Source: Branchiostoma lanceolatum (lineage: Eukaryota; Chordata; Leptocardii; Amphioxiformes; Branchiostomatidae). Taken from it: a DNA stretch of 64,000 nucleotides. The notes beneath the pieces are model-generated. The model did no database searches. It saw only the letters and a program-made list of their open reading frames with translations, and was not told where the DNA came from. Both the position numbers and the translations under genes were made by a program. Below, one piece after another: positions 75 through 64,000 of this stretch (positions within the stretch are counted from its first letter, which is position 1; each line of letters starts with the position of its first letter). Where the stretch lies: contig NC_089735.1 of assembly GCF_035083965.1 (NCBI RefSeq), positions 17,601,594 to 17,665,593 of the forward strand, given 5' to 3'.

Positions 75-2709
75 TTAAAACCACTCGGAGTTCTTACGGT
101 ATTCCTCCAGGGCCCTCCTGACCCTGTTGTCATGACGACTGGATAACCCGGCCTGCGCCGCGCATGTCATGATGGCGGCCTCCACGCAGGTCTTATAGTC
201 GTCCTTGTCGCCCACACAGTCGTCAATCACAGCTGGAACAAACAACTAGAGTTCCACGACCTCATACCTTCGCCAAATGATTTTAACCTTAGTTTATGAC
301 TGACGTATTAAGAGTGTTTCTCATCAATTAAAAATCATATCAGTTGATTATGTTCTCCACCCAAATGACAGACGTTGTCTAAAGTATGACGTTAACAAAG
401 AAGATTATGCTATCATTTATCATCAGTTATGCAAATTAGGTCTTCATTTGCATATTTTCTATCAATCAACATTCCTCTCGTCATCAGCTACAAATGTCAA
501 ATATTTGAATAGTCATATCATGGAACGCAGCGGGTTTTTGAAATTGCCTCATTAATTATGCATTTTAGAATCTGATTTGCATAGTTATTGCTAAATCATA
601 CAAAGCATCACTTAAGCTATCTACATGCCAAACATCATGATGATTCGTCAACCCCATCTTGAGTTATAATATTTTCTCATTAATTATGCAAGTGAGATCT
701 TCATTTACATAGTTGATATCAATTAATATTTCTCCTCAGTTACGTATGTCACATGTTTGAGAGTCCTATCATGAAATGCATATAAACCTTTCTCATTAAT
801 TATTCAAATTAGATACAGATTTGAATGATAAGTATCTAATTATGTAAATCATCACTCAAGCTATCATGACCTTTCAAATCCTTTCAAAGTCTGAAGCAAA
901 ACCTGCTCCTGTGGTTCAAAAAAAGCCACTAGCGGGCCCAAACCTATACCACGTACTCTCTGTCCAAAGAGCTATTTACCACTCAAACATCAGGACCATA
1001 CCATGTCCAGAACACGAGATATCAAAATAGAAAGTTCCGCTGCAGTACCGTAACAAGCTGTTAAGGGGTCCAAAATCTAATCATTTTCAAATCTCATCAA
1101 GACCTACCCACCTACTAAATTCAAGACAATCCATCAGAGCCTTCTTGAGTTATGCTGGTCATTTACATACACACAAATGCTACCCAAAACATATAATCTT
1201 CTTGGCGAAGATATCGACCCGGGATCCGGTGGCATAATTTCACAAAGGCCAAAGGAGATGTACGTCCAAGGTGCAATACCACTATAATCCGTTTGGAGGC
1301 GTAGTAGGTCATAACAGACCAAATGCTAACATAAAATGCGCCCTTATTGGATGAGTGTATATATGAACCAAATACCAACACACCTTTCTCACAGACGTAG
1401 TGCTTGAGCTCGCCGCAGTCGTGGTTGTTCCAGTTGTAGCCGTACTCAGGGCGAATCTCCACACACTGTTCCGTGTCGGGGTTGTCCGGCTGGACACCGT
1501 CCCAGCTGCTGTAGTCGGCGGAGGTCAGAATGCTGCCGTCGCTCCAAACAAACTGGTGCTAAAAATACAAATTAGTATAGAAGGACACTTTAGAGAGAAC
1601 CTACCAATGCCACATTAATGACATGATCATCATGGTATTGATAGAGCACAAAATTCGCCAAAAACAGTCACTCAAGCAACTGGGTATGATTTTGGAAACG
1701 GTCAGTTGTTTCAAGTAGCTAGCATCCACCATTGCTCGTTAGGAACACTCCGATCAAAAAATTGCTTTTTGATTCTGCAAGACTTGAACATTGACAGTAT
1801 AGACCGCAGGGGATCCTATTATATGTGTTCTTGCATCTTTTACATAAATTATTCAAGTTATATTTGCTTACCGTTGGACTGTTTAAATCGTCCAGGCCGA
1901 TCCAGGTGTTGTCATTGTGGCTGTTTTTGATGGTGTCCCCGAGGAAAGCGTCCATTTCGGCTGTCTTCACCACGACGAGACGTGCCCCTTCCGCTTGACA
2001 TGTTGCCCTGGCGTCCGCGTACGGTTTGCTGTCGGTAGAGAACTTCAGGCACGTGCCCTGTGCCTCTACGTAACCAGCCGGACAAGCAGCTTAGAAAATA
2101 CAGATGTGTTTTAGATGGTGAATAATATTTGGACTTCGAAGTACCAATATGATCTGTGATTCAGACTCATCATTCAGTCAAGAATCAAGTTGATTAAACT
2201 TCTGAACAATGATATCGAGTCTCGATATATGACTTCATCAGAGTATGGCGACCAGGCAACGTTGTCATGCGTGTTATTGTTGTCAAGGTTCGCTTACAAC
2301 ATTCATCTGAACTTTGATACTTCCTCATGGAGGCACCTACGCCATCGTTGGTGTCACAAACATCGTAACTTAGTAGTGCAAGAGATATCAGAATTTGCAT
2401 TAAGCTACGTTCAGCCTTGCGAACGCAGCGAGAGTTCTGAATAGACATGCAAACGAACTACTCTGACTCTCTTAATTATGGGTGAAGGGGGTTGCATGAG
2501 CGAAAAGAGGACATGATTATGACCTGTGCGTATCGGTCTTTGTGATGGTGTCTAGATCAATCTTTGAAGACGACATCACGTCACTAACAAAAGCTTAAAA
2601 GGGGAACAAAACTATTTATACAAATCTATACTGTTGGTAGCAGCCTCTACTCACCAAGACTTTGCCCTACCAGTCCCAGTATAACGCTCAGCATACACAG
2701 GCGCGACAT
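75..2709 (-). CDS. Secreted C-type lectin with C-terminal three-cysteine/RVRR module (4 exons, complete)
   Basis: Coding exons on the minus strand are 2655-2709, 1872-2089, 1384-1558 and 75-232 (phases 1, 0, 1), giving 201 residues. Residues 1-18 form a hydrophobic signal peptide, so the product should be secreted. Residues about 20-149 are a long-form C-type lectin domain: CPAGY...GTC opening, WIGL core, QPDN at 114-117 and WNNHDC at 134-139. QPD is the calcium/galactose-type ligand motif, so Ca-dependent galactose-type binding is expected from the family. Exon 4 adds a separate module, C155-x2-DKDDYK-x-C165-x7-C173, followed by the furin-type site RVRR at 186-189 and a short tail ending in W-F-stop. 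This module is homologous to exon 8 of the three downstream genes. The start ATG is chosen because it heads the signal peptide directly before a GTGAGT donor. Confidence 0.88.
233..1383. repeat. Lectin intron 3: AT-rich interspersed repeat
   Basis: No coding sequence is seen. About 300-1200 carries an interspersed repeat with two parts. An AT-rich part repeats modules around CATTAATTATGCAAATTAG and a GAGAGTCCTATCATG block. A second part contains GGGCCCAAA-type and TTGAGTTATGCTG blocks. Related copies lie at about 10330-10620, 26390-26905 and 34930-35150 in the same orientation, and at 7100-7260, 44285-44440 and 44765-44850 inverted. It is a dispersed family of unknown class; no terminal repeats or ORF are visible. 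Confidence 0.6.
2090..2654 (-). other. Lectin intron 1, nothing recognised
   Basis: Lies between the signal-peptide exon (donor GTGAGT next to 2655) and the first lectin-domain exon (acceptor next to 2089). No repeat, RNA or additional exon was recognised. The 313-bp intron 2 (1559-1871) is likewise unremarkable. Confidence 0.6.
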
Positions 2710-3243: not shown

Positions 3244-4711
3244 TCAGGCCGACAGGGGGCGCTTCTTCTGGAGGTGATACGTCATCACCATAACGGCGAC
3301 CATGACCACACCCACGGCGACGACAGCAATGGCGGCCACGACGAACTCCTCTGCCTCTGGAGCTGCACAGATAAAGAAACAACAGTACGGGCTTGACAAA
3401 CTCACTAACTTGAAAGGCAGCGTCTAGCTTGTAAAGCAAAAACCAAGACAAAAACCTCAATACTATCAAACAAAAAGGTATGTTGCGAAGTCTTTAGACA
3501 GAAGCAAAGGGTTGGCAAACAACAAGTGAAAATTGAAGGCTGTACAAACTAAATTCCTCGTGTGATTGTATATTTCGATCTTTCTATCTAGATTTTTTTT
3601 CTAATTTGGAGTTAGAACCAACCCGGGACCCGGTAACAAATAAAGCCGTAAGCTAATCGTGAGAACATCGAGAGGTAACCCCCGGTACCCGGCAGTCCAT
3701 CAGTACAAATTTGTCGCTTCAGAGCCAGGCCGGGGCTCCAGCCCCTACGGGTACCGGTGTAATTGTGACCATAGCATTACCGAAGTCCTCAGTGTCTTCC
3801 GCAGCCCTCCTGGCACGGTTGTTCCGAGCGGTGCGCCTGCTCTGTAGAGTCTCCAGGGCATTGTTGACGCAACCGGTGATCTGCTCCTCGACACAGTTCT
3901 TATACAGCCGCTTGTCGTCCTCGCACGGAACTGGTTGCTCTGAAAAGAATGGATAAGTTTAAATCCTACTGAAGGTCACGTTGAAGGGGTGATTGTTTGT
4001 AGTTACTGCTTACCGACTGTGCTGTAGTCGGTCGGATCAGCTGCCGATTGAATACCATGAGCTTCAACATGAAAAAAACAAACTTGATACCAATAATCTG
4101 TGTAACGGATTTGCTTCTAATAGCTCGTGGATTTATCATTCTTGACATTTTGAAGGAAACGTTTCAGAAAACATGTTCCAGTAGATGACAAATGGATTAA
4201 TGTCATAAACAGGCCGCAAAAACGTTCGATACTTTGGCCGTCGGGCGATCCGACCCGCGGTTTGACCGGTACCTCTGCCGTTACGGAATACCCCTTATTG
4301 TATTCTATATGTACACAAAAGTGCTCGATCTCACCTGCAGCCAGATCCTCATCGATTGCTCCGTCACCATCATCGTCCAGTCCGTTCGCCAGCTCCTCGT
4401 CAATCCGCCCGTCACAGTCGTTGTCGACGCCGTCGCCGGGAACGGTAGCGGTGGCCGCGCAGGGCGCAGCGATCTGGGCCAGCCTGAGGCCTCCCGGGTA
4501 GCCGTACGACTCGGGGGAGGTGAAGCCGTACACGGAGATCCCGAAAGTGACGATGGGGGAGGTGTGGACCAGGGTGTGGGTGCCGTCGGGGATGTCCAGG
4601 CGAGCCCCAGACAAGGCGGTCCCGGGGATGGGCGTCCAGGTGACGCTGGGGTCGAGAGGATTGCCGTTCAGACGCAGCCCGCCCTTCTCAGAGTCCTGGA
4701 GCAGTTTGAAG

Positions 4712-4743
<32 letters not shown>

Positions 4744-7700
4744 TACTGATATAAATCCATACATAAATGTATATATATGAGAAAGTCCACAGCATGGTCA
4801 TATAGGCAAAGACACGATGTTATTTCATGATAACTGGAGATAAAATTATGTAGACACATTTAAATGTCTTCTTCTTCTTCCAGTAATGTCCAGCGGCCGA
4901 GGAATCGGCCATCACTGCGCATTGACATCATGCACGCAGTTCAGCATTCAGCATGCTATCATCATACGCAGTTGTCATCATGCTAAGACTACCACTATGT
5001 ACCTGTATCGCAATGTTCAAATGGTGAGTCAGTGAGGAGGGGTCAGATATCAGCTGAGTGGTGGCGAAGGTGTAGTCAGCCGCGAACTGCTGCAGGGGCG
5101 GGATCATCAGCATGAAGGGGTCGGTGGCTGTGTTGTCGGCGTCACCGGTCTTACTGAAGGGTAAAAAAATAGGGGCAACTGAGCAGTCATAGGAACTAAC
5201 TTTACATGTGGTAAATTTATAGTAAGGAGCACTTTCGATCGTTCTCTAACATTAAATGTCAAATGCATAAAACACAAGGTAGTGCACCCAAAAAAGACTG
5301 ATAACCATCTATGCTATGTCTTATGAATACCTACCTGTATTGCATCAACATCACAGGCTCAGTTGCAAGGATATGAAGGTACTCGTCCGACCCTGCATCA
5401 AACTTCCAGACCTCACCGGCGTTCAGAGTCTGTGTGTTAAAGCCTGTGGCGTCGACCTGGAAGTAATGATATCTCAATATTAGAATTTTATGATTTGATA
5501 ATTTGTTACAATTATTTATCACAGTTTCTGGAAAGAACACACGTGCAACAGCTAGAATAGTCGTTGCTGATAGTGTTTTAAGGCTCTAGGGTTATGTATT
5601 CCTTACGTTGCAATGAAGCCTGGAGCAAAACATCCATGCATGTTCTTTGTCACATTTTAGTGATTAGAAATTAACCTGTGTGTTGTCCCTAGCGGCGATG
5701 ACCCTAAACTTGTCCCCCGACGACCTCTTTGCCAGCGGCACGGTGACGAACTCCTTCCCCCAGGTGTCCACGGGTGGGATCATCTCCACTATGTGGTCTC
5801 CTGTTCCAGACTGCCCGTTACCAACGACGACGAAGAGATTGCCACTCAGGACCGCAACGTTCTTGTCGGAGGTGATCTTGGACCCTACAAAAATGTCACA
5901 AAATGGTGCGTGTTATTGCATGACTCACAGTTGCGTGCCATTCATTAAATATCACCATTGCAAAGTTGTGCATTTTCTTTGTGTAGTGTAGTTATCTCTT
6001 GATTGTTTTCCACATTGTTCTTGCTTTGTGAACATCTCTGTCCCACTGACCTGTCAGATCAGCATCACTCTGCACCTGTAAAGTCCGCAGACGATCCAGA
6101 GTGACGGTGATGGTCTGTCCGGCCGTGTACGCTGTCCCGTCAAACGTCACGTCCTGTGTCGGAACGATGTTGACGGTCGTTCCGTCGTTGACGCCGACGA
6201 CACCGAACTGTGATGGCTGGTTGGAACTTGGATTGTAGCAGGACACGAAATACTCGGTCCCCAACACGTCGGTGGGGAGGGCCAGGAAGGCATCAGAAGA
6301 CGCCTGCTCAGCAAATACGCCGTAAACCACGATCTCCTCAGTAGCAGTGACGAGGATGCCGGTGCTCTGTGATGCACCACCGCGGAGCTCTACAGCTGCA
6401 CGCGGTAGATTCACGGTGTTGACCTAAACACAAGTGAAAACAAGTCAGAGTAGCGTGGATCCCGGGGTCTCACAAGCTGACCAGATTATCCTCTCCATAC
6501 GACGTCTTTTGTGCTAGAGTCACATTTCCAAACTGGGGCCAGGTTGGGCTATTTCCGGGAAAGAACGAACGTATGTTTGTTACGAAATATACGCGCGTAA
6601 TTTTGAAAAAAAAAGAAGTTTCGTGCGTTTTGTTATCTTTTATATCATCCTTTTTGTTCCTGCCCGGGCCCCGGTTTTGAAATGTGATCATAGCATTAGT
6701 TTGACAAATAGATAGATAAAGAGCAAACGTTATGCAGGCTTCATTCAGCATTCCGTCGGCTAACCAAGACAGTCAACCACACAGCTCGTACCCTAACAAG
6801 CCAAGAGCCACTGACCCACCTCTCCGAACCTGATGCTGAATGTGGTGGTGAAACCGACGCCTAGAACATCCACATAGACCGTGGCGGGAGTCTGAGTAGT
6901 TCCCGCCACCAGCAGCCTGGGCTCGTTCAGGTCACGCTGCATGTTCTCCGTGAACGTCAGGATGAACTCTGTGCCCTTGTTGTCGCGGACTCCTGTTGAG
7001 AATAATTCCGTCTGATTATTCTAACCACATTTGTCAAGAAGGGTATGTTTTTCGCCGCTGTGTGTCTGTGTGTCTTTCTGTTAGTGTATTGTGAAAAGTA
7101 TAATTCGAAAACTCGCGGATGGATCTTAATGATAAATGGTATGTTGGTAGGGGTTGGCAACATGAAGAAACGATTAGATTTTGAGCCCCCTGTCGGCTTT
7201 CTACGGTACTGCGTTGGAACTTCTGGTTTTGATATCTCGTGTTCTCGACATGCTGCGGTCGTGATCTTTTAGTGGTAGATAGCTCTTGGGTCAGAGAAAT
7301 GCTTAGGTCTCAATTGCGCCGGTGCCCTAAGGGGAAATAGTCCAGGCCGGGTCCCGAAGCCACCGGCACCGGGGGGTACCCCCCGATTTTTGTACGATTA
7401 GCTCACGGCATATTTTGTAATTGGGTCCCGCGTTGATTTTAATTGCGAGGTAAAGTAATTCAGGGTACCGGCCTGGCAAACAAAAGCCCAGCAGCCGCAG
7501 ACTGTCCCACGCGGCCATGTAACTTTAAAAGAGAATTGATGGAATTTCATTGCCTTTTGCGTGTAGTTACCTTAGATAATGATAAGCAGAATGTACGCGT
7601 ATTGTGCAAATAAGGACCTAATTTACATAACTAATAAAACGTTTAATTCGGCTACATTCTAGTACCATGCTAGGACTTTGAAACATGTGACGTACTTCAC

Positions 7701-8518
7701 GTGAAAGAGAGACAGATGTTCGACAGCAGGGGCTGGAATCTGGGTCAGCAGTGAGCCATAACAGTTCCCTGGTATCACTACAGTATCTGTCTGTTGCATT
7801 GTAATGGGACAATATAGTACAATGCTAAACTTTCTTCCACCGCTAAGGTATTCACGTATCAAATTGTCATAAAAGTAGTAATCACAGGACAATGTTAAAC
7901 TTTCTTCTAACACTAAGGTATTCACCGATCAAAATTTCAACGACCACTGCTGCCTTCTTCAGGATCAGTAATGACCAATCAATTGAGGTCATACATCAGG
8001 GAACTCCAGCCATCACTTAACAGAGACGGTGGGCGTTATAAACTTCCTGGCACGTTTGACCAATTGCTGACGTCACGTGTCCGGAAAGGCACGTGTCAAT
8101 TGAGGCACGTGTCTGTTACTTTGGCGAGTTTTACGTTCGGAAGGGATTGGTCATTACTGATCCTCAAGAAGGCAGCAGTGGTCGTTGAAAATTTGATCGG
8201 TGAATACCTTAGTGTTAGAAGAAAGTTTAGCATTGTCCTATGATTACTACTTTTATGTTATTATACATACAAATGTCATAATCATTTGACGGAGGTATGA
8301 GACCTCCGAACTCTAGTTTTCTGTATATAGTTTTCTGGCCGCAACGCTCTGTTGTACATAAAGTGTTTCTGCCAAACACATGACTGCATTTTAACATAAT
8401 GATTCAGTCAATTCAAGATCAATGTATCATAGACGTGAGAATGACCTATCTACATCTTACCTTGGCTCGCTGCAACCAGCACCAGCGTCAGAAGCGTAAA
8501 CGCCGATATGGTCCTCAT
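3244..8518 (-). CDS. Membrane-anchored IgGFc-binding-domain protein, paralog A (9 exons, complete)
   Basis: Coding exons: 8461-8518, 6820-6992, 6051-6423, 5676-5884, 5335-5456, 5003-5153, 4335-4695, 3781-3939 and 3244-3362, which sum to 574 residues plus stop. Residues 1-19 are a signal peptide. Exons 2-6 carry the domain found at the N-terminus of vertebrate FCGBP (IgGFc_binding family), recognised from the blocks STGI-VTAT, ALPTDVLGTEYFV, QFGVVGVNDGTTVNIVP, VAVLSGN and IPPVDTWGKEF. Exon 7 ends with two DxDxDG calcium loops, DNDCDG 453-458 and DDDGDG 469-474. Exon 8 carries C488, C498 and C506, then RARR 524-527, a furin-type site. Exon 9 is a transmembrane helix (about 542-563) with a short tail containing HLQKKR. 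Expected to be a type I surface protein. A is the most diverged paralog in exons 2 and 8 (exon 8 is 159 nt, against 150 nt in B and C). The ligand is unknown. Confidence 0.88.
3608..3692 (+). repeat. Repeat copy in paralog A intron 8 (inverted partner at 7360-7440)
   Basis: A stretch with CCCGGGACCCGGTAACAAA, AAGCTAATCGT and ACCCCCGGTACCC blocks matches, in reverse complement, the segment at about 7360-7440 in intron 1 of the same gene. It is a short dispersed repeat of unknown class. Confidence 0.45.
4200..4330 (+). repeat. Dispersed repeat fragment in paralog A intron 7
   Basis: Contains CAGGCCGCAAAAACGTTCGA and GGTACCTCTGCCGTTACGGA blocks ending in a TATTGTATTCTATA-like tail. Related blocks occur at 29690-30115, 32570-32860 and 55530-55850. 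The longest copies have inverted ends, so this is probably a foldback-type non-autonomous element. Confidence 0.5.
4709..4742. repeat. (TCAA)n microsatellite beside exon 7, paralog A
   Basis: A tetranucleotide run starts about 12 bp outside the exon 7 acceptor (next to 4695). The equivalent position in B (11871-11932, interrupted) and C (20479-20498) also has the run, so it predates or was copied with the paralog duplications. On the gene strand it reads as repeated TTGAT, which resembles a branch-point core. Confidence 0.85.
7100..7260 (-). repeat. Inverted copy of the interspersed repeat, paralog A intron 1
   Basis: Shares GATTAGATTTTGAGCCCCCT-like and GTACTGCGTTGGAACTTCTG-like blocks, in reverse orientation, with the copies at 300-1200 and 26390-26905. 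A second inverted copy is at 44285-44440. Confidence 0.55.
7866..8257. mobile_element. MITE with about 115-bp terminal inverted repeats
   Basis: The left arm 7866-7980 is matched in reverse complement by the right arm 8145-8257, with only scattered mismatches. The 164-bp centre includes three 16-bp tandem units, each starting with CACGTG (8074, 8090, 8106). A partial extra copy of the outer arm sits just outside at about 7806-7865. There is no ORF, so it is non-autonomous. It lies in intron 1 of paralog A. The superfamily is not assigned because no clean target duplication was identified. Confidence 0.75.
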
Positions 8519-9989: not shown

Positions 9990-11895
9990 TCAGGCCGCCA
10001 GGAGGCGCTTCTTCTGGACGTGATACGTCGTTGCCATGACGGCGACCATGACCACACCCACGGCGACGACAGCAATGGCGGCCACAACGAACTCCTCTGC
10101 CTCTGGAGCTGCACAGATAAAGAAACAAAAATGCAGGCTGTAAGTTCATCAATTCAGATCGCATGAAGAACCATCAAAAACCGAGCCAAAGGCACTATCT
10201 TTACCTGTATGTGTACATACATTAGTTTTACCGCAACATACATTTTCAGACGGAATCGAATGGTTGGAAGGGGTACAAAATGGTCCTTCTATTGTATCAA
10301 TTACAAAAACATTAAAAGAATCATGTTCATCTTCTCTACATAAAGAAATAAGGGCTTAATTTGCATATGTATAATTGCTATTTTTCGATATACCGCTCAG
10401 TTACATGTCACGTGTTTGAGAGTCCTATCATGGAATGCGGATTCCTAGACCATCCTTATCAATTATACAAATTAGTCGTTAGGGGGCCCAAAATCTAAAC
10501 ATTTTAGGTCTGTCAGGACCTACCCACATACTAATATAAATACCAAGACAATCCACCCAGGCGTTCTAGAGTTATCGTGTTCACACACAGAAACACAGAC
10601 ACACGGATGCTGCCGAAAACATAACATTATTGGCGAAGGTAAAGATAATTAACAATTCGTAAAAACACAAATGAACTTTGATGCTATGAAATTATCTTTC
10701 AGTAACACTATTCGCTATTGGCCCAGCAGACAATTGCTTCCCGTCTTACCGAAGTCCTCTGTCTCCTCTGCAGCCCTCCTGACGCGGTTGTTCCGAGCGG
10801 TGCCGCTGCTCAGGAGCGCCGTGACGACACAGTTGCCCAGCTCCTGCTCCACACAGCTCTTATAGTCGTCCTTGTCACTCTCACATGGAACTGGGGCTTC
10901 TAAATGAACGTCTAACATGACAAAACGTTTCGAGTTAGAATTTCAGAAATGGCTCAAGTTCATTCCACATTTTCACATGCTAGCCTGCAGCATAAAAAAA
11001 GCTGCTAGTTCAGTTTGACAGGTACCATTCTTACAATGAAAGTATTTTAATGCGGAGATAAGTAAATTAACATAAGTAAAACAAGAGTCCGGATTCAGGG
11101 TAGGTAATTGGCCCCAGCCCAATCTCTACCACACCTTCAAGATGGGGGTGTCATTCTGTAACATTACACTACCTAGAAATACTGCTACGGTGCCCAAAAT
11201 CAATGTGCATCATCTCGCCCATACTAGAAGACAACATGCATTTAGAAGTACATACAGATGCTTCAAGGGGATCTTGACTTATACAAGCTGCAACCACACA
11301 GACACTACAAACCGCAATACCCCTGTAAAGGGTAAACCTTCTTCACGTAGGTAATTAATTAGATCCTCTGCTTGTACCAGCTATGCAGCCATAATGTAGG
11401 TATAATACATGTACCTACATTGGCAAGGAAATATTTTTGGAAAATACGTTTTAGTAGATGATAAATGTATGGAGACAGAAGCACTTCTACCTGCTGCCAG
11501 ATCCTCATCGATCGCTCCGTCGCCATCATCGTCCAGCCCGTTCGCCAGCTCCTCGTCAATCCGCCCGTCACAGTCGTTGTCGACGCCGTCGCCGGGAACG
11601 GTAGCGGTGGCCGCGCAGGGCGCAGCGATCTGGGCCAGCCTGAGGCCTCCCGGGTAGCCGTACGACTCGGGGGAGGTGAAGCCGTACACGGAGATCCCGA
11701 AGGTGACGATGGGGGAGGTGTGGACCAAGGTGAATGTACCGTTGCCGATGTCAATGGTGGCGCCTGATAGGATGGTGCCGGGGATGGGCGTCCAAGTCAG
11801 GCCTGGGTCGAGAGGGTTGCCGTTCAAAAGCAACCCACCCTTCTCAGAATCCTAGAAATATCATTTTTATTAATCAATCAATCACCCAAACAATT

Positions 11896-11930
<35 letters not shown>

Positions 11931-14900
11931 TGAATATAACGTTATATCCACTCTTTTTCTTTAACACATTTTAGCGAGATAGCCCATAGCACTCAAGACC
12001 ACGAGTTATTAAGGTTATGACTGTCTGGGAAATGTTGCAGGCCTTAAGATGGCTCATTCATGTAAGCATATATTCACACAACGAAGAGGTATCAGTATCA
12101 CAACGCCCATGGCCATCTGTAAGATGCTAACATTCCCTCTGATGAGAGTTATGTGGTACAAGACCATTTGTGGCTTAAGGTTTTGTTAAAAAAGACATAT
12201 GCGTTATTACGCATGTACAATGTCGTTTTAAGTTTTCTTTTCTACACAATGTGTGATTCAAATGCTGGGGTGATCACCTCAATCGCTATGTTGACATGAT
12301 GCGTCAGTTTGTCGGGGCTGCTGACTAGCTGAGTGGTGGCGAAGGTGTAGTCAGCCGCGAACTGCTGCAGGGGCGGGATCATCAGCATGAAGGGGTCGGT
12401 GTCCGTGTTGTCGGCGTCACCGGTCTTACTGTGGATAGGTAAGGGAAGGACTTTTTTTTCAATTCTTATATCAAGGATAGATGTGCCAAAATTGTTATTG
12501 GGATAGAAAAGACCAGAGGAGATTGTTATTAAAACAGACCACGTCTTTATGAATACAAAATCAACAAAATTGTTGTGATGCCCCTTCATGAAGACCCATG
12601 GAGTGTGATGCATGATGGGAATCATCCCTTAAGTGTTAGTTCCTATGGGGTAATTGTTGAAGTTCCAGATCAATTTTGCGGTCAACTCAAACGAAGAATT
12701 AAGTTGCTAAGTTTGAGAAAAACTATTCAAACAAAGGCTACAAACATTATTTCATTGGACCTAGCTTTCCTAAGAGCCGCCAATATTTTGTGAGGGCCTT
12801 TTTTTCAAGTCGTATGGGTTTCAATGGGATGATTGACAAAGATCGAAGTCCATTTTCGACCCAAAGTAAGTGGAAAATATAGTTATCAAGGATGCAAGTT
12901 GACAAACAAGTATCCAGAAACAAATTGCAAAGGCAAATTTTAAGCTCAACGAAAGGTTTCTTAAGAGCTGCAGAGTTGAAGTTTGTCCAATGGTTATTCG
13001 TGATATAATATGTTACACCTGGCTTATTTCAATATTGATGCTGTATAATGTAACTGCTGCCTAATCCAGGTTCAAGGTCAAGTTGCCAATGCAATTACGT
13101 TCTTGGATTCAGAAAAATATTTTCAGCCGAACTAGAATACTCTCCTCTGGTCTTGTATATGGCTTTAAGGCAGCGTGATAGTGCTCAATGAAAAACTCAT
13201 TAGTGATACCAAAAGACACCTACATGTATCTGTACGTAACAGCGCACAGTAAGCGTGTGTCGTACAAAATCGGCTTCTGGCAGTATGTTTTCTTTTGCAA
13301 GTTTGAAGATGCATATATTATACGAAAGCAGAAAGAGTATCAATGACTCGAATAATTAGCTGTGAAATACACGTGTCTAATGCTCACAACAAACTACCGT
13401 ACCTGTACTGCATCAACAGCACCGGTTTAGTTGTGACGACATGAAGGTACTTCTTAGTCCCGCCGTGAAACTCCCAGAACTCACCGGTGTCGATAGTATG
13501 GGTGTTCATGTCTGTGACGTCAACCTGAAAGATAACGAAAAAAACATTTACGATTAAAGATTTGAAAGGAAGACTTTCCAAAGTATTTTAGCACAACCAC
13601 GTGAAAAGGACAGATACGAATGTGATACCTTATTCTAATCACATGTATAGCATTTTTAGATCCACGTTAGATTCCAAAGGTGCTATCTATTTCTGAAAAA
13701 AACCCCACATGCATCTGATTGTGTTAATGATCTGTGGCAGTGAAATATCACTAACATATCAATTTCATCTACAATTATCATGTTTATCTAACGGTCTACC
13801 ATTATCTTAGGTTCATGTACTAATGCTCAGATAAGCAATCAAGTGCATTCTAAGTTTCTTACCAATTCTAGTTGGTAACGTATTGTTTTATTTTTGTATA
13901 CCGAAGTTCTCTTCTGTTGGATTCCCTATGAGAGAGCCTAACCTGTGTGTTGTCCCTAGCAGCGATGACCCTAAACTTGTCCCCCGACGACCTCTTTGTC
14001 AGCGGCACGGTGACGAACTCCTTCCCCCAGGTGTCCACGGGTGGGATCATCTCCACTATGTGGTCTCCTGTTCCAGACTGCCCGTTACCAATGACGACGA
14101 AGAGATTGCCACTCAGGACAGCAACGTTCTTGTCGGAGGTGATCTTGGACCCTGTACAAAAATACCCAAAACAGTGCGTGTTGTTACATGATACAGATCA
14201 GAGAGGATAACAATGTTATTTTATTACTTTCAATTAGCCTACGGGCAGGAATTTAAAATAAACTTTCATCATTTATTCACAACCAAGACATACAATCACA
14301 GCCGACGTTTCGGTGACCGTCTATCACCTTCGTCAGGGCAATTCTGACTGCTATTACTGCACACAGCAGGCTAGGTGTCGCTGCTTACAATGCATTCCCA
14401 AACATATATGCGGCCCAAACGTAAAAATTGTCATATACATGTATACAATAATGATAACTACCGTTTTACGTTTTGGAATTTACTGTAAGCACCGACACCA
14501 TGCCTGCAGTGTGCAAGTCAAGAACTACACTGAGGCAGGTGAAAGACGGTCACCGAAACGCCGGCTGTGATTGTATTTTTGGTTGTGAATAATAACCTTG
14601 TTATCCAGTGGTTCCTCGACCTGATTGAATAATTCACGGATACAGAGTAGACAGTCTTCAAGCTATCATCATTACAAGGATGTGCATTTTCGTACACACT
14701 AGATTTCATAGCTTGGTTCCTCACACATTGCATTTCTTTTATATGAATATCCTGCTCCACTAACCTGTCAAGTCGTCATCACTCTGCACCTGTAGAGTCT
14801 CCAACCGATCTAGAGTGACATGGATGTGCTGTCCGGCCGTGTACGCGGTTCCGTTAAACGTCACGTCCTGCGTCGGCACGATGTTGACGGTCGTTCCGTC

Positions 14901-15786
14901 GCTGACGCCGACGACACCGAACTGTGATGGGTCGTTGGAGCTCGGACTGTAGCAGGACACGTAGTACTTCGTCCCCAACACGTCGGTAGGAAGGGCCAGG
15001 TAGGCGTCAGACGAGGCGCTTTCGGCAAACACTCCGTACACCACGATCTCAGCGGTGGCGGTGATGATGATGCCGGTGCTCTGCTTTGCGCTCCCGCGCA
15101 GCTCCGCGGCAGTACGCGGCACGTGAACGGTGTTCACCTAGAGAGACACACGTGAGAGTGAGTGAATCACTCTATCAAAACAAGAACGGCTGATTGTTTG
15201 GATAGATATTGAGACACCGGTTGCAGGCAGGCCTAGTCTTGCCAAACATGTCAGCCAGTCTAACAAAACATTTCTAGCCAGCGGGCCAATCTACCAGCCG
15301 ACAGCACAGAAAGGTACAAATTAAGGACCTACCTCTCCGAACTTGATGTCAAACGTTTGTTGAAACCCTGCAGCAGGTATTTCCACATTGACAGTGGCGG
15401 GAGTCTGAGTAGTTCCCGCCACCAGAAGCCTGGGGTCGACCAAGTCACGCTGCTTGTTCTCCGTGAACGTCAGAATGAACTCTGTGCCCTTGTTGTCGCG
15501 GGCACCTGACAGTGTATACAAAGGATCAAAGGTGTTCCGCGGTAACAGAGGACATTTTCTTGTAGCCGCGTTGCTGTTGATCTGATGCCAATGATTGCTT
15601 GGTTCAATGCATCTTCAGAAGAACAAATAAGACGAAAGAGAAAATAACATTTTTCTCATTCTTCTAGGCCCTGTCGGAATTTGTACATTTTGCGTCGTGG
15701 TACGTCCAACACACAAGCACAAATGATAACTCACCTTGGCCTGCTACAACCAGGATCAGAACAGCAAACGCAGAAATAGCCTTCAT
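9990..15786 (-). CDS. Membrane-anchored IgGFc-binding-domain protein, paralog B (9 exons, complete)
   Basis: Coding exons: 15735-15786, 15333-15505, 14765-15137, 13943-14151, 13403-13524, 12278-12428, 11491-11851, 10750-10899 and 9990-10108, for 569 residues. Every exon from 2 to 9 has the same length and phase as in paralog C, and as in A except exon 8. Signal peptide 1-17; IgGFc-binding-type ectodomain in exons 2-6; calcium loops DNDCDG 451-456 and DDDGDG 467-472; cysteines 486, 496 and 504; RVRR 519-522; transmembrane helix about 537-558; tail HVQKKRLLAA. Exon 6 ends at a weak donor (GTGATC) that the other paralogs do not share. The 5' half of exon 7 and the end of exon 6 are B-specific, while the 3' part of exon 7 is nearly identical in all three, which suggests gene conversion. 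Function is inferred as surface or shed recognition or mucosal binding; the ligand is unknown. Confidence 0.88.
10330..10640 (+). repeat. Interspersed repeat copy in paralog B intron 8
   Basis: Shares GTTTGAGAGTCCTATCATG, GGGGGCCCAAAATCTAA and TCTAGAGTTATCGTG-type blocks with the copies at 300-1200 and 26390-26905. Same orientation as the lectin intron copy. Confidence 0.55.
11871..11932. repeat. (TCAA)n microsatellite beside exon 7, paralog B
   Basis: Interrupted TCAA/TTAA tetranucleotide run about 20 bp outside the exon 7 acceptor (next to 11851). Positional equivalent of 4709-4742 in A and 20479-20498 in C. Confidence 0.85.
12429..13402 (-). other. Paralog B intron 5, nothing recognised
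   Basis: 974 bp between exons 5 and 6. No repeat family from elsewhere in the window, no RNA and no coding potential was recognised. It is much longer than the matching introns of A (181 bp) and C (217 bp), so an insertion is likely, but its borders are not visible to me. Confidence 0.5.
14229..14595. mobile_element. Inverted-repeat element with a LINE-like tail in paralog B intron 3
   Basis: Arms 14275-14340 and 14533-14593 are reverse complements; each holds TACAATCACAGCC, then GACGTTTCGG or GGCGTTTCGG, then TGACCGTCT. Immediately to the left, 14231-14265 reads CAATTAGCCTACGGGCAGGA and then an AATAAACTTTCA tail. That closely resembles the 3' end of the LINE at about 18588-18628. There is no ORF. 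It could be two adjacent insertions or a foldback element next to a LINE-tail fragment. Confidence 0.6.
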
Positions 15787-16268: not shown

Positions 16269-16489
16269 CCCTGTGTGCCCATGGCTCTTGGTGCATCTAG
16301 ATCTTAAATTCCGTTGTTCCGTTGTGAAGGATTTGGAAACAGCTTGTATGATTTACCGTAACATGGACTGCAAAACGTCATAGTATATAAGTCGTTGTGT
16401 TATTGTATTCTCACGTTGCTCTTCTTTATCAAGTAGAAAGAGACTAAAGCGGCTATTACCACGTCGTGACGTACGTCTGGGGATCTAAA

Positions 16490-18640
16490 CCCTTTGGACA
16501 CTCCGATTAGTAAAAATGAAATCAAACAAGCAATCTCTAAACTTAAGAACGGCAAAGCCTCGGGTAGTGATCTCATTCGCAATGAGATGCTCAAATGCTC
16601 AGTGCACATCATTTTAGTACCGTTAGTCAAACTTTTTAATCTATTCCTGTCTGCAGGATACTTTCCCCAGGAATGGTGCAAGAGCCACATTGTTGCACTA
16701 CACAAAGGTGGTGCAAAAGATGACGCAAATAACTACAGGGGAATTTCGGTGACAAGCTGCTTAGCCAAGCTATTCACCTCTGTTATAAATACAAGACTTA
16801 CAACATATTTAGATGAATACAAACTAATCTCTCCTAACCAGGCAGGTTTTCGGAAAAACTTTGGTACAAACGACAACCCATTTGTTATGGACTCCTTGAT
16901 TGGTAAATATATATCCGGTAATAAACGGCTCTACGCCTGTTTCATAGATTTTAGAAAAGCGTTTGACTCCGTTTGGCGCGAGGGGCTCAGATTCAAACTA
17001 CTTAACTCGGGAATAGGGGGGAACTTTTACAACGTAATCAAATGTATGTACGAAAAACCCAACACTTGCGTCAAAACGCCTTCCGGCCTAACACCACCTT
17101 TCGTCACTAATGAGGGTGTTAGGCAGGGCTGTAATTTAAGCCTTACACTTTTTAACTTATTCATCAACGATTTAGTGCAGGAGTTAGACCATATAGAATG
17201 TTCACCACCCACTCTACATAACCTATTGGTATCTTGTTTGCTATATGCTGACGATGTCGTTTTATTTTCTGAATCCGATAAGGGATTACAGTGTACCATA
17301 GACAGACTAAATACGTTTTGTTCTAAATGGAAGCTGCAAGTTAACCTAAAGAAAACTAAAGTTATCATCTTCAACAAATCCGGACGATCCTTCCCAAAAC
17401 TAACTTTCTTGTTCGGACAGGACAAAATAGACATTGTTTCCTCATACTGCTACTTAGGCATAACAGTAACATCTTCAGGCAGCTTCTCTTTAGCCAAAAA
17501 AACAACTGTCAAACAAAGCCCGTAAAGCCATATACAGCTTCAAATGTCTAACTCGCTCATCAGTTTCGCCCGATAGTTTACTGAGGATATTTGACTCATA
17601 TTTCAAACCCATCCTATTATATGGATGTGAAATTTGGGGTACCGAGAGACTGAACGACACGTCACCGATTGAAATTACACATAACCGTTTTTGCACAAAC
17701 ATTCTTGGTGTTTCCAGGAACAGTAGTAATATAGCAAGTAGATCCGAATTAGGTAGACTCCCTCTGGACATTGAAATTTCTGTCCGTCTCATTAAGTACT
17801 GGTTACGCTTGATACAATTGGACATCGCCACGCACCCATTGCAGAGAGACGCACTCCTATTTCAGCATAGCTCTGTTACACATACTAATAGCCGTAGAAA
17901 AACATTGTTACAGCGAGTTAAAGAAATCCTTGATTGTAGCGGTTACTCATATCTGTTATACTCTGATAGCTCACTCTGTGACCCCAAATATGTATGTACT
18001 CTGATAAGGAACAGAATTTCTGATATGTATATCCAGACATTCCTTCATAATCTAAGTGCCGATACAGGTAAACTGAGATTTTATAAAACTTGTAAATCTG
18101 TATACACTAGAGAGAGGTACCTAGAACTTGCTGATTTTGAGTCGCGCTCGGCCATCAGCAAATTAAGAATCAGTGCTCACTCCCTAGAAGTAGAGAGAGG
18201 ACGATATAAGAGTTTACCAGTGTGCCAAAGAATGTGTAAATACTGTACGTCCAAGGCGGTGGAAGACGAAACACAATTTATTTCCAAGCGTATATTTAAC
18301 AGTGACGAAAGAACCGAATTATTTAAACAAGTTATCACGAAATATCCCTACTTTTGCACATTCACGGATGAACAAAAAGCTACCTTTCTCTTGAAATCAC
18401 AGAACCCACAAATACTAGAAAAAGTGGGACTTTTCGTCTTCCACTGCTTCCAAAAAAGAAGTCAAACCCAGCTAATTTAGATATAGCCAACAATTGTATA
18501 TAGTACCAGTAACCTATTGTTACAGCAAAGTCAGACACAGTTTACTGACGCATGTATGTTTTTCCTATGTTTTTATCATGTATTTGCAATTAGCCCACGG
18601 GCATGAACTTGCAATAAACTTCACTCTAAAAAGGAGCGTT
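16490..18640 (+). mobile_element. 5'-truncated non-LTR retrotransposon (LINE), frameshifted
   Basis: 16494-17525 encodes a reverse transcriptase with recognisable motifs: NYRGISV, FIDFRKAFDSVW, GVRQGC and YADDVVLFSES. The frame breaks in an A7 run at 17496-17502. Downstream, one frame stays open from about 17503 to the stop at 18480 and carries the thumb/C-terminal part with a CKYC-type cysteine pair. There is no endonuclease region, so the copy is 5'-truncated, and the catalytic YADD is intact. The 3' tail ends around TTGCAATAAACTTCAC (to about 18640). The clade is uncertain; the RT resembles marine-invertebrate L1/Tx1-like or I/Nimb-like LINEs. It is a pseudo-copy and is not expected to be autonomous. 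Confidence 0.85.
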
Positions 18641-19154: not shown

Positions 19155-22100
19155 TCAGGCCGCCAGGAGGCGCTTCTTCTGGAGGTGATACGTCATCGCC
19201 ATGACGGCGACCATGACCACACCCACGGCGACGACAGCAATGGCGGCCACGACGAACTCCTCTGCCTCTGGAGCTGCACAGATAAAGAAACAACAGCACA
19301 GACTTTAGAATCCCATTAAGTCAACGCGCATGAAGGACAAAAACACTAGCCAATGATACTGTTACCTTATGACATACTGGTTCAGTTCACTTCAGTTCAT
19401 CCTCAATGAAGTGATACGAGACCTACTGGTATTACACTGATAGATGATGTAGTTTTTTTGTAGTTTCGCCACAACAGACATTTCCAGCCAGAGTCGAATT
19501 ATTGAAAGACATTCCGAGCAAAACAGTCTTTCTCTGGTATCCGTTACGAAATCCGCGTCAGGTAAATTTGGTACCAATCAGTAATGCAACAATTACTACC
19601 AATACAGATGAACGTTCATGCTTGCAAGAAACACTAATTGCCATTGGCCCAGCAGACAGTGTCACCCAAGGTTCCCGCCTTACCGAAGTCCTCTGTCTCC
19701 TCTGCGGCCCTCCTGACGCGGTTGTTCCGAGCGGTGCCGCTGCTCAGGAGCGCCGTGACGACACAGTTGCCCAGCTCCTGCTCCACACAGTTCTTGTAGT
19801 CGTCCTTGTCATCTTCGCAGGGAACTGGGGCTTCTACATTAATTGGGAACATTACAACAAATTCTAGTCAGAGTCTTTTAACAGGAACAAGTTCATTAAA
19901 CGTTTTCAAGCACATGACAAGCATCAGCTACCTTCATCAGATAGTAATGAACCTTTTCTATGTACCTCTGTGGCAATAAGGCGATCCCAAACTAACTTTA
20001 CTTCAGTTTAGTTGGCCATTACCATTCTCACTGTTAAGGTTTTTTTGATATCAGGGATGAGAAGATGAATTTTTGTATGAGTGATGTAAGGGAAATTGAT
20101 TCTTACGTGCAGCCAGATCCTCATCGATCGCTCCGTCGCCATCATCGTCCAGCCCGTTCGCCAGCTCCTCATCAATCCGCCCGTCACAGTCATTGTCGAC
20201 GCCGTCGCCGGGAACGGTAGCGGTGGCCGCGCAGGGCGCAGCGATCTGGGCCAGCCTGAGGCCTCCCGGGTAGCCGTACGACTCGGGGGAGGTGAAGCCG
20301 TACACGGAGATCCCGAAGGTGACGATGGGGGAGGTGTGGACCAGGGTGTGGGTGCCGTCGGGGATGTCCAGGCGGGCGCCAGACCAGGTAGTGCCGGGGA
20401 TGGGCGTCCAAGTCAGGCTGGGGTCAAGGGGATTGCCGTCCAAACGCAGCCCGCCCTTCTCAGAGTCCTAGAACCATCGGATCAATCAATCAATCAATGA
20501 AGCACATGTCTTTATAAACATTTGTGTGGAAATCAACACCATTGTCATCACCTAATCCACTAAACTAATTCCAAAGTGACGTTGCTCGTCTTCCCGCAAA
20601 AGAGTCGATGATTTATTACCTGCCAACCATCTTAAGTGTAGTAGTAAAGAAATGTGTCTATAGACAACTCGAATATGCAGCGCATTTAAGATTACGCACA
20701 CATATATATAGGGTCTTCAGCATCATATGCTGATTATATCGTACTGACTGTCGTTATAGTTCCTTACTTGTATGGCAATATTGACGTGGTGAGTCAGTGA
20801 GGAGGGGTCAGATATCAGCTGAGTGGTGGCGAAGGTGTAGTCAGCCGCGAACTGCTGCAGGGGCGGGATCATCAGCATGAAGGGGTCGGTGGCTGTGTTG
20901 TCGGCGTCACCGGTCTTACTGAATGAGTGAAGGAGGCAAATAGAGTGGTGACTAACAAACTCTAAAAACTATCAAAATTACTTCAAGGGTTGCTTTAGTT
21001 AGAGGATATATTAACTGAGATCGTTTTCTAGACTTCGAACGCACAAAATTCATAACGTTGACATTGTACAAAATGACACGATGCATCGTATGTACATTAT
21101 CATACGAGCAAATACGAGTAAAAAGACTAACCTACCTATATTGCATCAACATCACCGGCTCATTTGCAACCACATGAAGGTACTTGCCAGATCCCGCATC
21201 AAACTCCCAGAACTCACCGGCGTTCAGAGAGTGGGTGTTCTTGTCTGTGGCGTCGACCTGAAATACGGTTAATATTTGCAATCTAGACTTTCAATCACCA
21301 TTTTTGACAATCTATTTCAGCATAAACACATGGAAAGATGCCACTTATTCCAATAATATCATTGCTGAGATCTACGTTACATTTTTGTGGCTTGAGGAAG
21401 AAACTTGCAAACATGTAATTTTGTATACCAAAGTGCCCCATTACTTCTGTTGGATTCCCTGTAGGAAAGCCTAACCTGTGTGTTGTCCCTAGCGGCGACG
21501 ACACGGAACGTGTCCCCCGACGACCTCTTTGTCAGCGGCACGGTGACGAACTCCTTCCCCCAGGTGTCCACGGGTGGGATCATCTCCACTATGTGGTCTC
21601 CTGTTCCAGACTGCCCGTTACCAACGACGACGAAGAGATTGCCACTCAGGACCGCAACGTTCTTGTCGGAGGTGATCTTGGAACCTGCAGGATGCGGCAA
21701 AATCAAGCGTGTTGTTACATAATACATAGTAGATAGTCTTGTAGCTATTGCAATTACGTTGAAGTTATCTCTTGATGTCTCATACATTGCTCTTTCTTTT
21801 ATAATCCCCCCCTCCGTACACAAACCTGTCAAGTCTGCATCACTCTGCACCTGTAGAGTCTCCAGCCGATCCAGAGTGACGGTGATGGTCTGTCCGGCCG
21901 TGTACGCTGTCCCGTCAAACGTCACGTCCTGCGCCGGAACGATGTTGACGGTCGTTCCGTCGTTGACGCCGACGACACCGAACTGTGATGGTTGGCCGGA
22001 GCTGGGATTGAAGCAGGCCACGTAATACTCGGTCCCCAACACGTCGGTAGGGAGGGCCAGGAAGGCGTCAGAAGACGCCGATTCCGCGAAGACGCCGTAC

Positions 22101-23342
22101 ACCACGATCTCAGCGGTGGCGGTGATGATGATACCGGTGCTCTGCTTTGCGCTCCCGCGGAGCTCTACCTCAACACGCGGCACGTTAACGGTATTGACCT
22201 AAAGGGACACAATGAGAACGAATCAGGATGGAACGCCGGCAAAATCGCCCTCTGCTTTAAACTCTAAACGGCTGAATGGATGAAAGATGAGACACTGGTC
22301 AACAGGCAAGCCTAGTCTGGCCACCAATGTCAGTCAGTATAACGGACTACCTCAACGGACTAACTAGAGAGCTTTTTGTGTAGCACTTCTAGCTCTGCGA
22401 GACTAATTAGTGTAATTAGCCTTTTTATTAGATGTACATACTTGATTGTCATTAACATTTGCTTTTGTTTTTGCTTTGTTTTTGCTTTATGACTTTTTGT
22501 TAAATGTTAAGTGGTACTGTTGATATAAGTTGTTCAGCACCATTTTACCCATGTCATTGTATTGTATTATTTACTCAATAAAAAAATACAGTCCAGCAAA
22601 TCAAGCCAGTAACAATTCAAACCAGTAAGCCAAGTAGCCAGTCCTACAGAAAAGCAGGCCAATCATAGACCAACAACCCACCTCTCCGAATTTGATGTCA
22701 AACGTTTGTTTGAACCCTGCAGCAGGGACTTCCACATCGACAGTAGTGGCGGTCTGAGTAGTTCCCGCCACCAGAAGCCTGGGGTCGACCAGGTCACGCT
22801 GCATGTTCTCCGTGAACGTCAGGATGAACTCTGTGCCCTTGTTGTCGCGGGCACCTGACAGTGTATACAAATTACAAAGAGCAAAAGTGTTTCGTGATGA
22901 CAAATGAATTTTTCCATGTGACTAGCTTGTTGCTGACCTGATGCAATATAATAACAAACAAACGATAACCCTGTCGAAGCATAACATTCTATACTATATA
23001 TATACCCTATAGTGTGTACAAACTAGAGCCCTTTCTATGCCCCAAACAACGGAAAACAACCAACCCACCCCAACAATGTGAATAGACCGATTACGAAAGG
23101 TGTAGCCAAAAACAGGTCCCTAAGGATTGCGTTCACGGAATGTTTAGAACTCTTTTCGACTCGATCGCAGTACTATACTGACGATTCTGCACGTTAAGTG
23201 TTGCAAAGCATTTAATATCCCGTAACCCAATCGGAAGCAATATCAATATGCGTTGACCAACACACGAGCACAGATATCATAACAGCTCACCTTGGCCTGC
23301 TACAACCAGCATCAGAACAGCAAACGCAGAAATAGCCTTCAT
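19155..23342 (-). CDS. Membrane-anchored IgGFc-binding-domain protein, paralog C (9 exons, complete)
   Basis: Coding exons: 23291-23342, 22682-22854, 21826-22198, 21476-21684, 21136-21257, 20768-20918, 20107-20467, 19684-19833 and 19155-19273, for 569 residues. Signal peptide 1-17, nearly identical to that of B; IgGFc-binding-type ectodomain (blocks SKITSDKNVAVLSGN, MIPPVDTWGKEFVTVPL, TKRSSGDTFRV); calcium loops at 451-456 and 467-472; cysteines 486, 496 and 504 in the CEDDKDDYKNC context; RVRR 519-522; transmembrane helix about 537-558; tail HLQKKRLLAA. It matches B most closely in exons 1, 2, 8 and 9, but matches A in exon 6 and the 5' half of exon 7. Exon 7 ends GCA-C, so the junction codon gives Q instead of E. 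Exon 1 shares its GTGAGT donor with B. Expected type I membrane protein, possibly shed by furin-type cleavage. Confidence 0.88.
20479..20498. repeat. (TCAA)n microsatellite beside exon 7, paralog C
   Basis: Short tetranucleotide run about 12 bp outside the exon 7 acceptor (next to 20467), the positional equivalent of the runs in A and B. Confidence 0.85.
22370..22590 (+). repeat. Possible retroelement 3' tail in paralog C intron 2
   Basis: T-rich sequence with TTTGCTTTTGTTTTTGCTTT repeats, ending TTACTCAATAAAAAAATAC. It looks like the polyadenylated 3' end of an inserted retroelement. There is no counterpart at this position in introns 2 of A or B. No ORF. Confidence 0.4.
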
Positions 23343-36700: not shown

Positions 36701-37342
36701 TCATCTCCCAGTTTAGCAAATACTAAGCAACCGATCAATCTAATTGATAAGAAGTTCATTCATTTCTTGCCATAAGGTTGGTTTCCCTCACCAAAATTGA
36801 TCTTAATTTGAACTTGAAACAAGAACAGCATGCACCATCATGAAAAATGAAAAGGGGATTTGGAAATGTAATGAATAGAAAAAGTCCAGACTTGGTTTTT
36901 GATTCTCTTTTCTGATAAACACCAACCTTGCATGACCTTGATATACTCGTACTGTGGCCAGGTCCAGAAGTATGTCTGGTTGAAGTACAGGTTGATGTTG
37001 TTTCCCGCGGCGGCGGTGATAGTCCAGCGGCAGCCCCAGATTCCCGTTGTTCCAGTCCAGAACCGTCTCTCCTGGTCGGGCCAGTTGGGACTCTTGATGG
37101 ACCCGTAACCCTCCTGCTGGGGGATCCCGTTAGCACACTTGGCTGGAAATGGAACAGAGAAGAATTAGGAGGGAAAGAAAGTGATAGTGATCTAGAACCA
37201 GTCTAGTTCACTGAAGTGAAGACCTATTCATCCACTGGGCGTGAAAGAGAAGACAGACGCCGTGTACATGACGGTATTTACAGGTTCATTGTGGGGGGGA
37301 TTTCCCTAGCTCTTTTCTACAAACACAATGAAGTGTGTGTGT

Positions 37343-37384
<42 letters not shown>

Positions 37385-63180: not shown

Positions 63181-64000
63181 TATGAACACGCCCTTTAGAA
63201 TGCACGGTTGAAATTGGACCAGTGTATATAAACAATCCCTGTAGAGTGCAAAGTTGAAACCGCTTCAAAGGATCACAACAGTTCGGACATAAAAGAATTG
63301 TCCGTCCTAAGTGGGTGTATAACCAACGAGGCATATGATAAAAAAAGTCAATCTTCCCCCATGACCTCTGTTTGGAAAGTAGGTTATATGGGTATAAATT
63401 ACACAAAAGCCACTAAGAGTGCAAAAAACATTCCGTCCTTATAGTGTACGACCGTAAGTTCCTAACAATGAAAACTCACAGAATGGAAAAGAACTTACAA
63501 ACTTTTCCAAACAAGAGCTTCCCGTCTTAAGTTAGCGGATAGAACCCGCTTAATACTGCAATTCTAAACGTTCTTAAGGAACGCTCTTAGCTATGATTTT
63601 CAGGGTATAAGAGCTGAAAACAGTGTAAACTAGAAAGTGTGTTAGGACATTATATACAATGCCCTCGTTCTATTGACGCAATTTAACCTTGCCATCTTAA
63701 ACCCCCGTCACAAATCAAGAATTAAGCTCGGCCGACATGTCGGCGAGCTCCAAATGGGTATTTTCGGCCAAAGGACGGTCGACGTTCTGTCGATTACGCG
63801 GGCTTCGGTCGATTTTTAGAAATCAAATTGATCCAAATATGCTCCGGCGATTTTGAACTTCGGCGAGCTTTCGGAGATCTACGAATTCGGCCGACGCTCG
63901 CATGAATATTGACGCCGGCTTAAGGGCGTGTGTACACCCATATAGGCACGGGCGTCAAAGTAAAAGTTTTCATTTAGAATTGAGGTGTCAATTTATTTAT
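63181..64000. other. Window end, decayed minisatellite and inverted monomer
   Basis: 63181-63460 holds eroding minisatellite-like fragments. 63700-63900 is GC-richer with GGCCGAC/GTCGGC motifs and no gene. 63920-63985 is an inverted copy of the minisatellite monomer. Confidence 0.5.

Follow-up and report, generated by a model that had tools for sequence, protein, structure and literature searches.

The left end of the analyzed stretch of the Branchiostoma lanceolatum genome (64,000 nucleotides; hereinafter, the window) contains a C-type lectin gene that is probably a chimera carrying an anciently captured 3' anchor-and-release cassette of the type found in the adjacent IgGFc_binding genes. 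Under this reading, the signal peptide and the C-type lectin domain would be encoded by exons 1-3 of the lectin gene, and its two final exons would have their homologs in the two final exons of the IgGFc_binding genes that adjoin it in the same orientation. With phase-1 introns on either side, the 3' cassette could be joined in frame to either head; the fusion would be older than the divergence of the Branchiostoma species sampled, and the cassette could have spread by recombination in the tandem array.

The lectin gene and its IgGFc_binding-type neighbors

The lectin gene is located on the minus strand. Exon 1 (2655..2709), delimited from its splice sites and the gene model, contains the start codon and a signal-peptide-like segment, MSRLCMLSVILGLVGQSL, and ends in phase 1; its start is the same as in the orthologs P0001 and P0009. 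Exons 2 (1872..2089) and 3 (1384..1558) encode the first and the second part of the C-type lectin domain, the latter ending with CEK in phase 1; an alternative start of exon 3 at 1552 is possible, and 1558 matches both orthologs (HQFVW). Exon 4 (98..232; 135 nt, phase 1-1) encodes a three-cysteine module with an RVRR site and is bounded by the donor ACC/GTAAGA at position 98. Among the Pfam profiles, Lectin_C (PF00059) matches residues 39-149 of the lectin with an E-value of 2.3e-20 and a score of 73.8 bits, which passes the curated cut-off of 22.6. The canonical C-type lectin motif is WND; the window lectin contains QPDN and WNNHDC and, given WNN in place of WND, it is uncertain whether this protein binds sugar and calcium. 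Outside the signal-like segment, the window lectin contains nine cysteines, an odd number.

Of the two orthologs, P0001, from B. floridae x B. japonicum, is named "perlucin-like", and P0009, from B. belcheri, is named "CD209 antigen-like protein E". They are NCBI gene predictions of 233 residues each that combine the lectin domain, the module, the helix and the tail within one protein and in the same register. After the module, both continue with EEY-LPRE, a hydrophobic helix and the C-terminal QKKRLAA. Among the best 60 of 156 PDB sequences, residues about 20-150 of P0001 match domains of the mannose receptor and DC-SIGN. The window lectin is identical to P0001 in 42 of 45 positions of the module and 118 of 130 positions of the lectin domain, and to P0009 in 37 of 45 and 113 of 130; the two regions are conserved between species to about the same degree.

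Three genes with IgGFc_binding-type heads, denoted p1, p2 and p3, follow on the same strand. The paralog nearest to the lectin, p1 (3244-8518, nine exons), has a gene model whose 574 residues all coincide with those of P0006, the NCBI prediction for B. lanceolatum IgGFc-binding protein-like isoform X1. It consists of a signal-like exon and the IgGFc_binding head (exons 1-7, 4335..8518), a diverged module with DKRLYK and RARR in phase 1-1 (exon 8, 3781..3939), and a membrane helix with the tail QKKRPLSA (exon 9, 3244..3362). In our Pfam scan, which among the IgGFc genes covered p1, IgGFc_binding (PF17517) was identified with an E-value of 5.9e-76 and 256 bits (curated cut-off, 25.6); the heads of p2 and p3 were typed from their 569-aa models, both of which are free of stops. 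In p2, the head is encoded in exons 1-7 (11491..15786; aligned to the P0002-P0008 types), exon 8 is at 10750..10899 and exon 9 at 9990..10108; in p3, the respective positions are 20107..23342 (with exon 1 at 23291-23342), 19684..19833 and 19155..19273. In both genes, exon 8 encodes a module with DKDDYK and RVRR in phase 1-1, and exon 9 encodes a membrane helix and the tail QKKRLLAA. The IgGFc proteins typically contain six cysteines outside the signal-like segment (9 of the 10 sequences; P0002 has seven) and end in QKKRLLAA, QKKRPLSA or QKQRLLAA after a helix similar to that of the lectins. The database entry nearest to p3 is P0002 (NCBI B. lanceolatum FCGBP protein), with 564 aa compared to 569 aa in the window p3; the two differ around exon 5 (21136-21257), and P0002 has an extra cysteine, which could be either a model error or an allele. 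A search of PDB sequences with the IgGFc profile produced no match at E-values up to 0.1.

The window contains several additional features. Between p2 and p3, on the plus strand, there is a reverse-transcriptase open reading frame (16470-18477; RVT_1, E-value 6.5e-36) followed by a second open reading frame without a Pfam match, that is, a LINE-like element inside the array. Intron 1 of p1 contains an inverted repeat (7868-7980/8145-8257) with 113-nt arms that are 96% complementary and a 164-nt spacer. Further along, within 30898-50510, the minus strand carries Sushi exons (30898-31197, 31431-31685 and 43620-43880) and CUB exons (42766-43104 and 50139-50510, with 36841-37164 slightly below the curated cut-off), which probably represent further secreted or complement-like genes. 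Two tandem arrays are located at 47412-49186 (16-bp unit, about 111 copies) and 60850-63217 (100-bp unit, about 24 copies).

A common 3' unit under two unrelated heads

The preliminary description attributed to the module exons of all four genes a single pattern, namely C-x2-DKDDYK-x-C-V-E, a third cysteine eight residues on, LSS and NRVRRA-EE. This pattern is complete in the lectin (98-232), p2 (10750-10899) and p3 (19684-19833), all on the minus strand, but not in the diverged exon of p1 (3781-3939), which reads C-x2-DKRLYK-x-C-V-E ... NRARRAAED and lacks LSS. The phase-1 start noted at the same time is present in all four genes, and given the donor at 98 in the lectin, the module exon has phase 1-1 in every one of them. 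With lectin exon 4 as the query against the 2157 six-frame segments of the window of at least 20 residues each, phmmer placed only the query itself and the three paralog exons above the inclusion line (best-domain E-values of 2.8e-9, 6.2e-9 and 6.6e-4; the next segment, 2.9). None of 5000 shuffled versions of the lectin module reached the real score in any of the three comparisons (z of 11.0 for p1, 19.0 for p2 and 18.4 for p3). The preliminary description had staked the homology on a similarity above background, and both phmmer and the shuffles put the module exons clear of it. The comparison of lectin exon 3 (residues 92-149) with exon 7 of p3 is near background, with 120 of 5000 shuffles reaching the score, and the clear similarity therefore begins at the exon border.

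The similarity continues beyond the module. For the transmembrane segment and tail taken alone, six comparisons were made with 5000 shuffles apiece, none of which reached the real score (z 8.8-12.0). When the two whole lectins were aligned with seven whole IgGFc proteins using hhalign, a single match of 79 columns was obtained, between lectin positions 155-233 and IgGFc positions 488-574 (probability 98.3%, E-value 1.2e-14, 44% identity), and BLASTP of P0009 against P0002 gave 45% identity over 83 positions (E-value 4e-8). Judging from these alignments, the similarity between the lectins and the IgGFc proteins spans the region from the exon border to the C-terminus, and the common unit is two exons, one for the module and one for the helix and tail. 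The heads are unrelated, as originally proposed, one belonging to Lectin_C and the other to IgGFc_binding. What is found at this locus is a homologous exon with the same symmetric phase next to unrelated flanking domains, as expected of a shuffled 1-1 module. No Pfam family was found for the module in the scans of the lectin and p1.

The protein searches for other carriers of the module retrieved only two types of heads. With candidates of about 111-351, 314-999 and 219-696 aa chosen by exact 5-residue words, these searches yielded one match from one candidate, seven from 232 and nine from 8000 scored (the 8000 sharing the most words); the nine different proteins matched have Lectin_C (2) or IgGFc_binding (7) heads. 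All matches come from Branchiostoma, and the amphioxus origin initially assumed is supported; longer carriers, or diverged ones outside Branchiostoma, could escape searches of this kind.

The preliminary description viewed the module as a single exon shuffled between neighboring genes. The sharing and the lack of relationship between the heads hold, but the unit comprises the module, the membrane helix and the tail. For this reason, the acquisition of a whole 3' end, or a change of head in a duplicated neighbor, fits better than insertion of a single exon.

Predicted release, exon exchange and alternative readings

Each of the 13 proteins examined (12 distinct, p1 being the same as P0006) has a single RX[KR]R motif, which invariably lies in the module and is directly followed by alanine; the three module cysteines are likewise retained in all 13. 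The membrane helix is present in 12 of the 13, the C-terminus of the window lectin being outside the window, and in these 12 proteins, the distance from RX[KR]R to the hydrophobic stretch is 13-18 residues. The 19-residue hydropathy maximum is 2.27-3.15 in the five C-termini tested. Two AlphaFold2 models were too poor to be used (mean pLDDT 47.2 and 35.3). The sequences thus present R-x-[KR]-R outside the membrane helix, as do precursors released by convertases. From these features, we infer that the cassette would make the protein a type I membrane-anchored precursor, in which the three cysteines might form disulfides that keep a small stalk together or connect chains, and a furin-type proprotein convertase would cut after RXRR, 13-18 residues outside the helix, to release the head. 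The processing/anchoring role ascribed to the module from the outset is accordingly still a conjecture, albeit one favored by the RXRR site in all 13 proteins and by the hydrophobic helix.

The main rival to a released head is an uncut anchor: the chimera would be real, RXRR would stay uncut in vivo, and the cassette would serve as the stalk and anchor of two kinds of surface receptors. RXRR motifs occur in uncut proteins as well, and the hydrophobic helix and basic tail common to the lectins and the IgGFc proteins are compatible with such a permanent attachment. The spacing of R-x-R-R and the alanine that follows are, however, kept in 13 of 13 proteins despite the variability of the adjoining residues and of the loop length, and we consider a stable anchor possible but the less plausible outcome, at perhaps one chance in a few.

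The history of the IgGFc array appears to differ from exon to exon. We compared eight IgGFc proteins exon by exon, with P0002, a second model of p3, left out of this comparison and of the trees. Exons 1-2 group by orthology (exon 2 of lan_p1, flo_7 and bel_5 is 97-100% alike), exons 3-6 show mixed grouping, and the similarity among the belcheri-type copies of exon 7 is 98-99%. Grouping by species is seen in exon 9 and, for the most part, in exon 8: the two floridae copies of exon 8 are 88% alike, the three belcheri-type copies 98-100%, and lan_p2 and lan_p3 94%, with lan_p1 standing apart (62-64% to lan_p2/lan_p3 and equally to the floridae copies). A p2-type head is joined to a p1-type module in flo_8, and the reverse combination is found in bel_5; module types assort across head types. 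For groups picked after inspection of the sequences, the AU test rejected two clades, one of the lan_p1, flo_7 and bel_5 modules (p-AU 5.6e-13), the other of the flo_7 and flo_8 heads (p-AU 0.0071). A clade of belcheri-type heads was not rejected, and in the best whole-head tree, the three come together weakly (64/66); therefore, the heads are partly mosaic too. The simplest reading of these sequences is that the 3' exons of the neighboring genes have been exchanged or homogenized, exon by exon. At the DNA level, p1 is 91-95% identical to p2/p3 in exon 7, 72-73% in exon 8 and 93-97% in exon 9, a pattern that would fit either an exchange of exon 8 of p1 (3781-3939) alone or its separate retention.

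The module of the lectin looks old and outside this exchange because the lectin modules from the three sources form a clade of their own (100/100, 56 columns). The same clade leaves a recent wholesale conversion of the lectin exon by its neighbors unsupported. At the motif DKDDYK of the window lectin, to which a smaller conversion might have been limited, the two other lectins read DKDEYK. In its first 24 codons, lectin exon 4 has 10 or 11 residues in common with each paralog, 7 to 9 of these with the same codon, a coincidence that may be caused by codon preference. The longest contig for P0009 (two contigs) and for P0003 is equal, 17,093,916, which suggests linkage there too. A broader scenario, which we offer tentatively, is that the tandem array provides a common anchor-and-release cassette for varied heads, with ongoing recombination that exchanges and homogenizes the 3' exons of the IgGFc genes independently of the 5' ones, and with the lectin as a second class of head that entered the array and later escaped this process. 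If true, new shed immune proteins could arise in the germline by a swap of the head and retention of the membrane-release end.

The chimera itself could be an artefact of gene models: the lectin gene would have its end at another place, and the exons for the module and the membrane helix would be part of a downstream IgGFc gene that is decayed or separate. A comparable false fusion involving Lectin_C in lancelets was exposed by ESTs (PMC4967905). Against this reading, which we regard as improbable, the frame past CEK stays open for 73 codons without a natural end, and the lectin therefore needs a further exon after exon 3. The splice sites and phase agree with the chimera; the degree of conservation of the module would be unexpected for an orphan exon; and the same protein is predicted from two other lancelet sources, even if predictions, which P0001, P0006 and P0009 all are, can share errors. 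In addition, p1 has AATAAA 78 and 87 nt past its stop, before the lectin's own ATG, and these signals favor a real lectin gene.

The preliminary description had exon 4 spanning 75-232 as the C-terminal exon, which would give a secreted lectin ending in EEYRKNSEWF. The frame is indeed open to the stop at 75-77, and such a transcript could be an isoform with a retained intron. That span, however, crosses the good, canonical donor at 98, and both orthologs proceed from the module into the membrane helix. As the main form of the gene, the terminal exon is hardly credible: from the sequence, 98-232 is the more likely extent of exon 4, the read-through to 75-77 is probably intronic, and exon 4 is probably not the C-terminal one. 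Inspection by eye of the three minus-strand frames of bases 1-97 of the window revealed no membrane exon; in B. lanceolatum, exon 3 would be spliced to exon 4, and the last, membrane exon would be located past the left edge of the window.

Finally, chance or the common composition of short, charged, cysteine-containing exons is an explanation that can be practically dismissed, since, short as the module exons are (45-53 residues), no shuffle reached the real score in the three module and six transmembrane-tail comparisons, and the hhalign E-value points the same way.

Comparison with known systems

Each of the heads belongs to a known family: the lectin has the same Lectin_C domain as C-type lectins (PF00059; perlucin-like, CD209-like), and the neighbors carry the domain of the FCGBP-like IgGFc_binding family (PF17517), with which the relatives of p1 are annotated. 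In mammals, FCGBP is secreted as a large mucus protein, in contrast to the lancelet IgGFc proteins, whose C-terminal part consists of the RXRR module followed by a membrane helix. The lancelet lectin differs from CD209, a type II membrane protein, in having a signal-like segment first, a helix last and an RXRR site in between. Precursors of ZP-domain proteins contain a consensus furin site just outside the C-terminal membrane helix, and the position of the candidate convertase site in the cassette is the same. This likeness is one of working only: the cassette proteins lack a ZP domain, with no ZP family detected by Pfam in the lectin or p1 at E-values up to 10, and sequence kinship to ZP is not demonstrated. 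The candidate role of the cassette is to let immune-type proteins leave the cell surface in a controlled manner.

A search of the open-access literature, by titles and the openings of abstracts, found no paper on the cassette of module, helix and tail. Shuffling of 1-1 phase exons has been reported to be fast in lancelets (Huang et al. 2014, PMC4284660), and this has been disputed on the grounds that gene predictions converged on false lancelet fusions, one of them with a Lectin_C domain (PMC4967905). The speed of shuffling in lancelets is thus contested, the question being whether bad gene models are at fault, and a Lectin_C fusion is among the counter-examples. The locus described here is a well-delimited new case of the 1-1 shuffling already reported in lancelets. 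As in the cases described by Huang et al. (PMC4284660), a 1-1 phased exon is attached to unrelated domains; what differs here is that two exons forming the 3' end of a gene are shared, the probable source genes adjoin it, and the module has no Pfam family. The locus supplies the debate with a fusion that has exact exon borders, matching phases, a product predicted from two sources and probable source genes next door.
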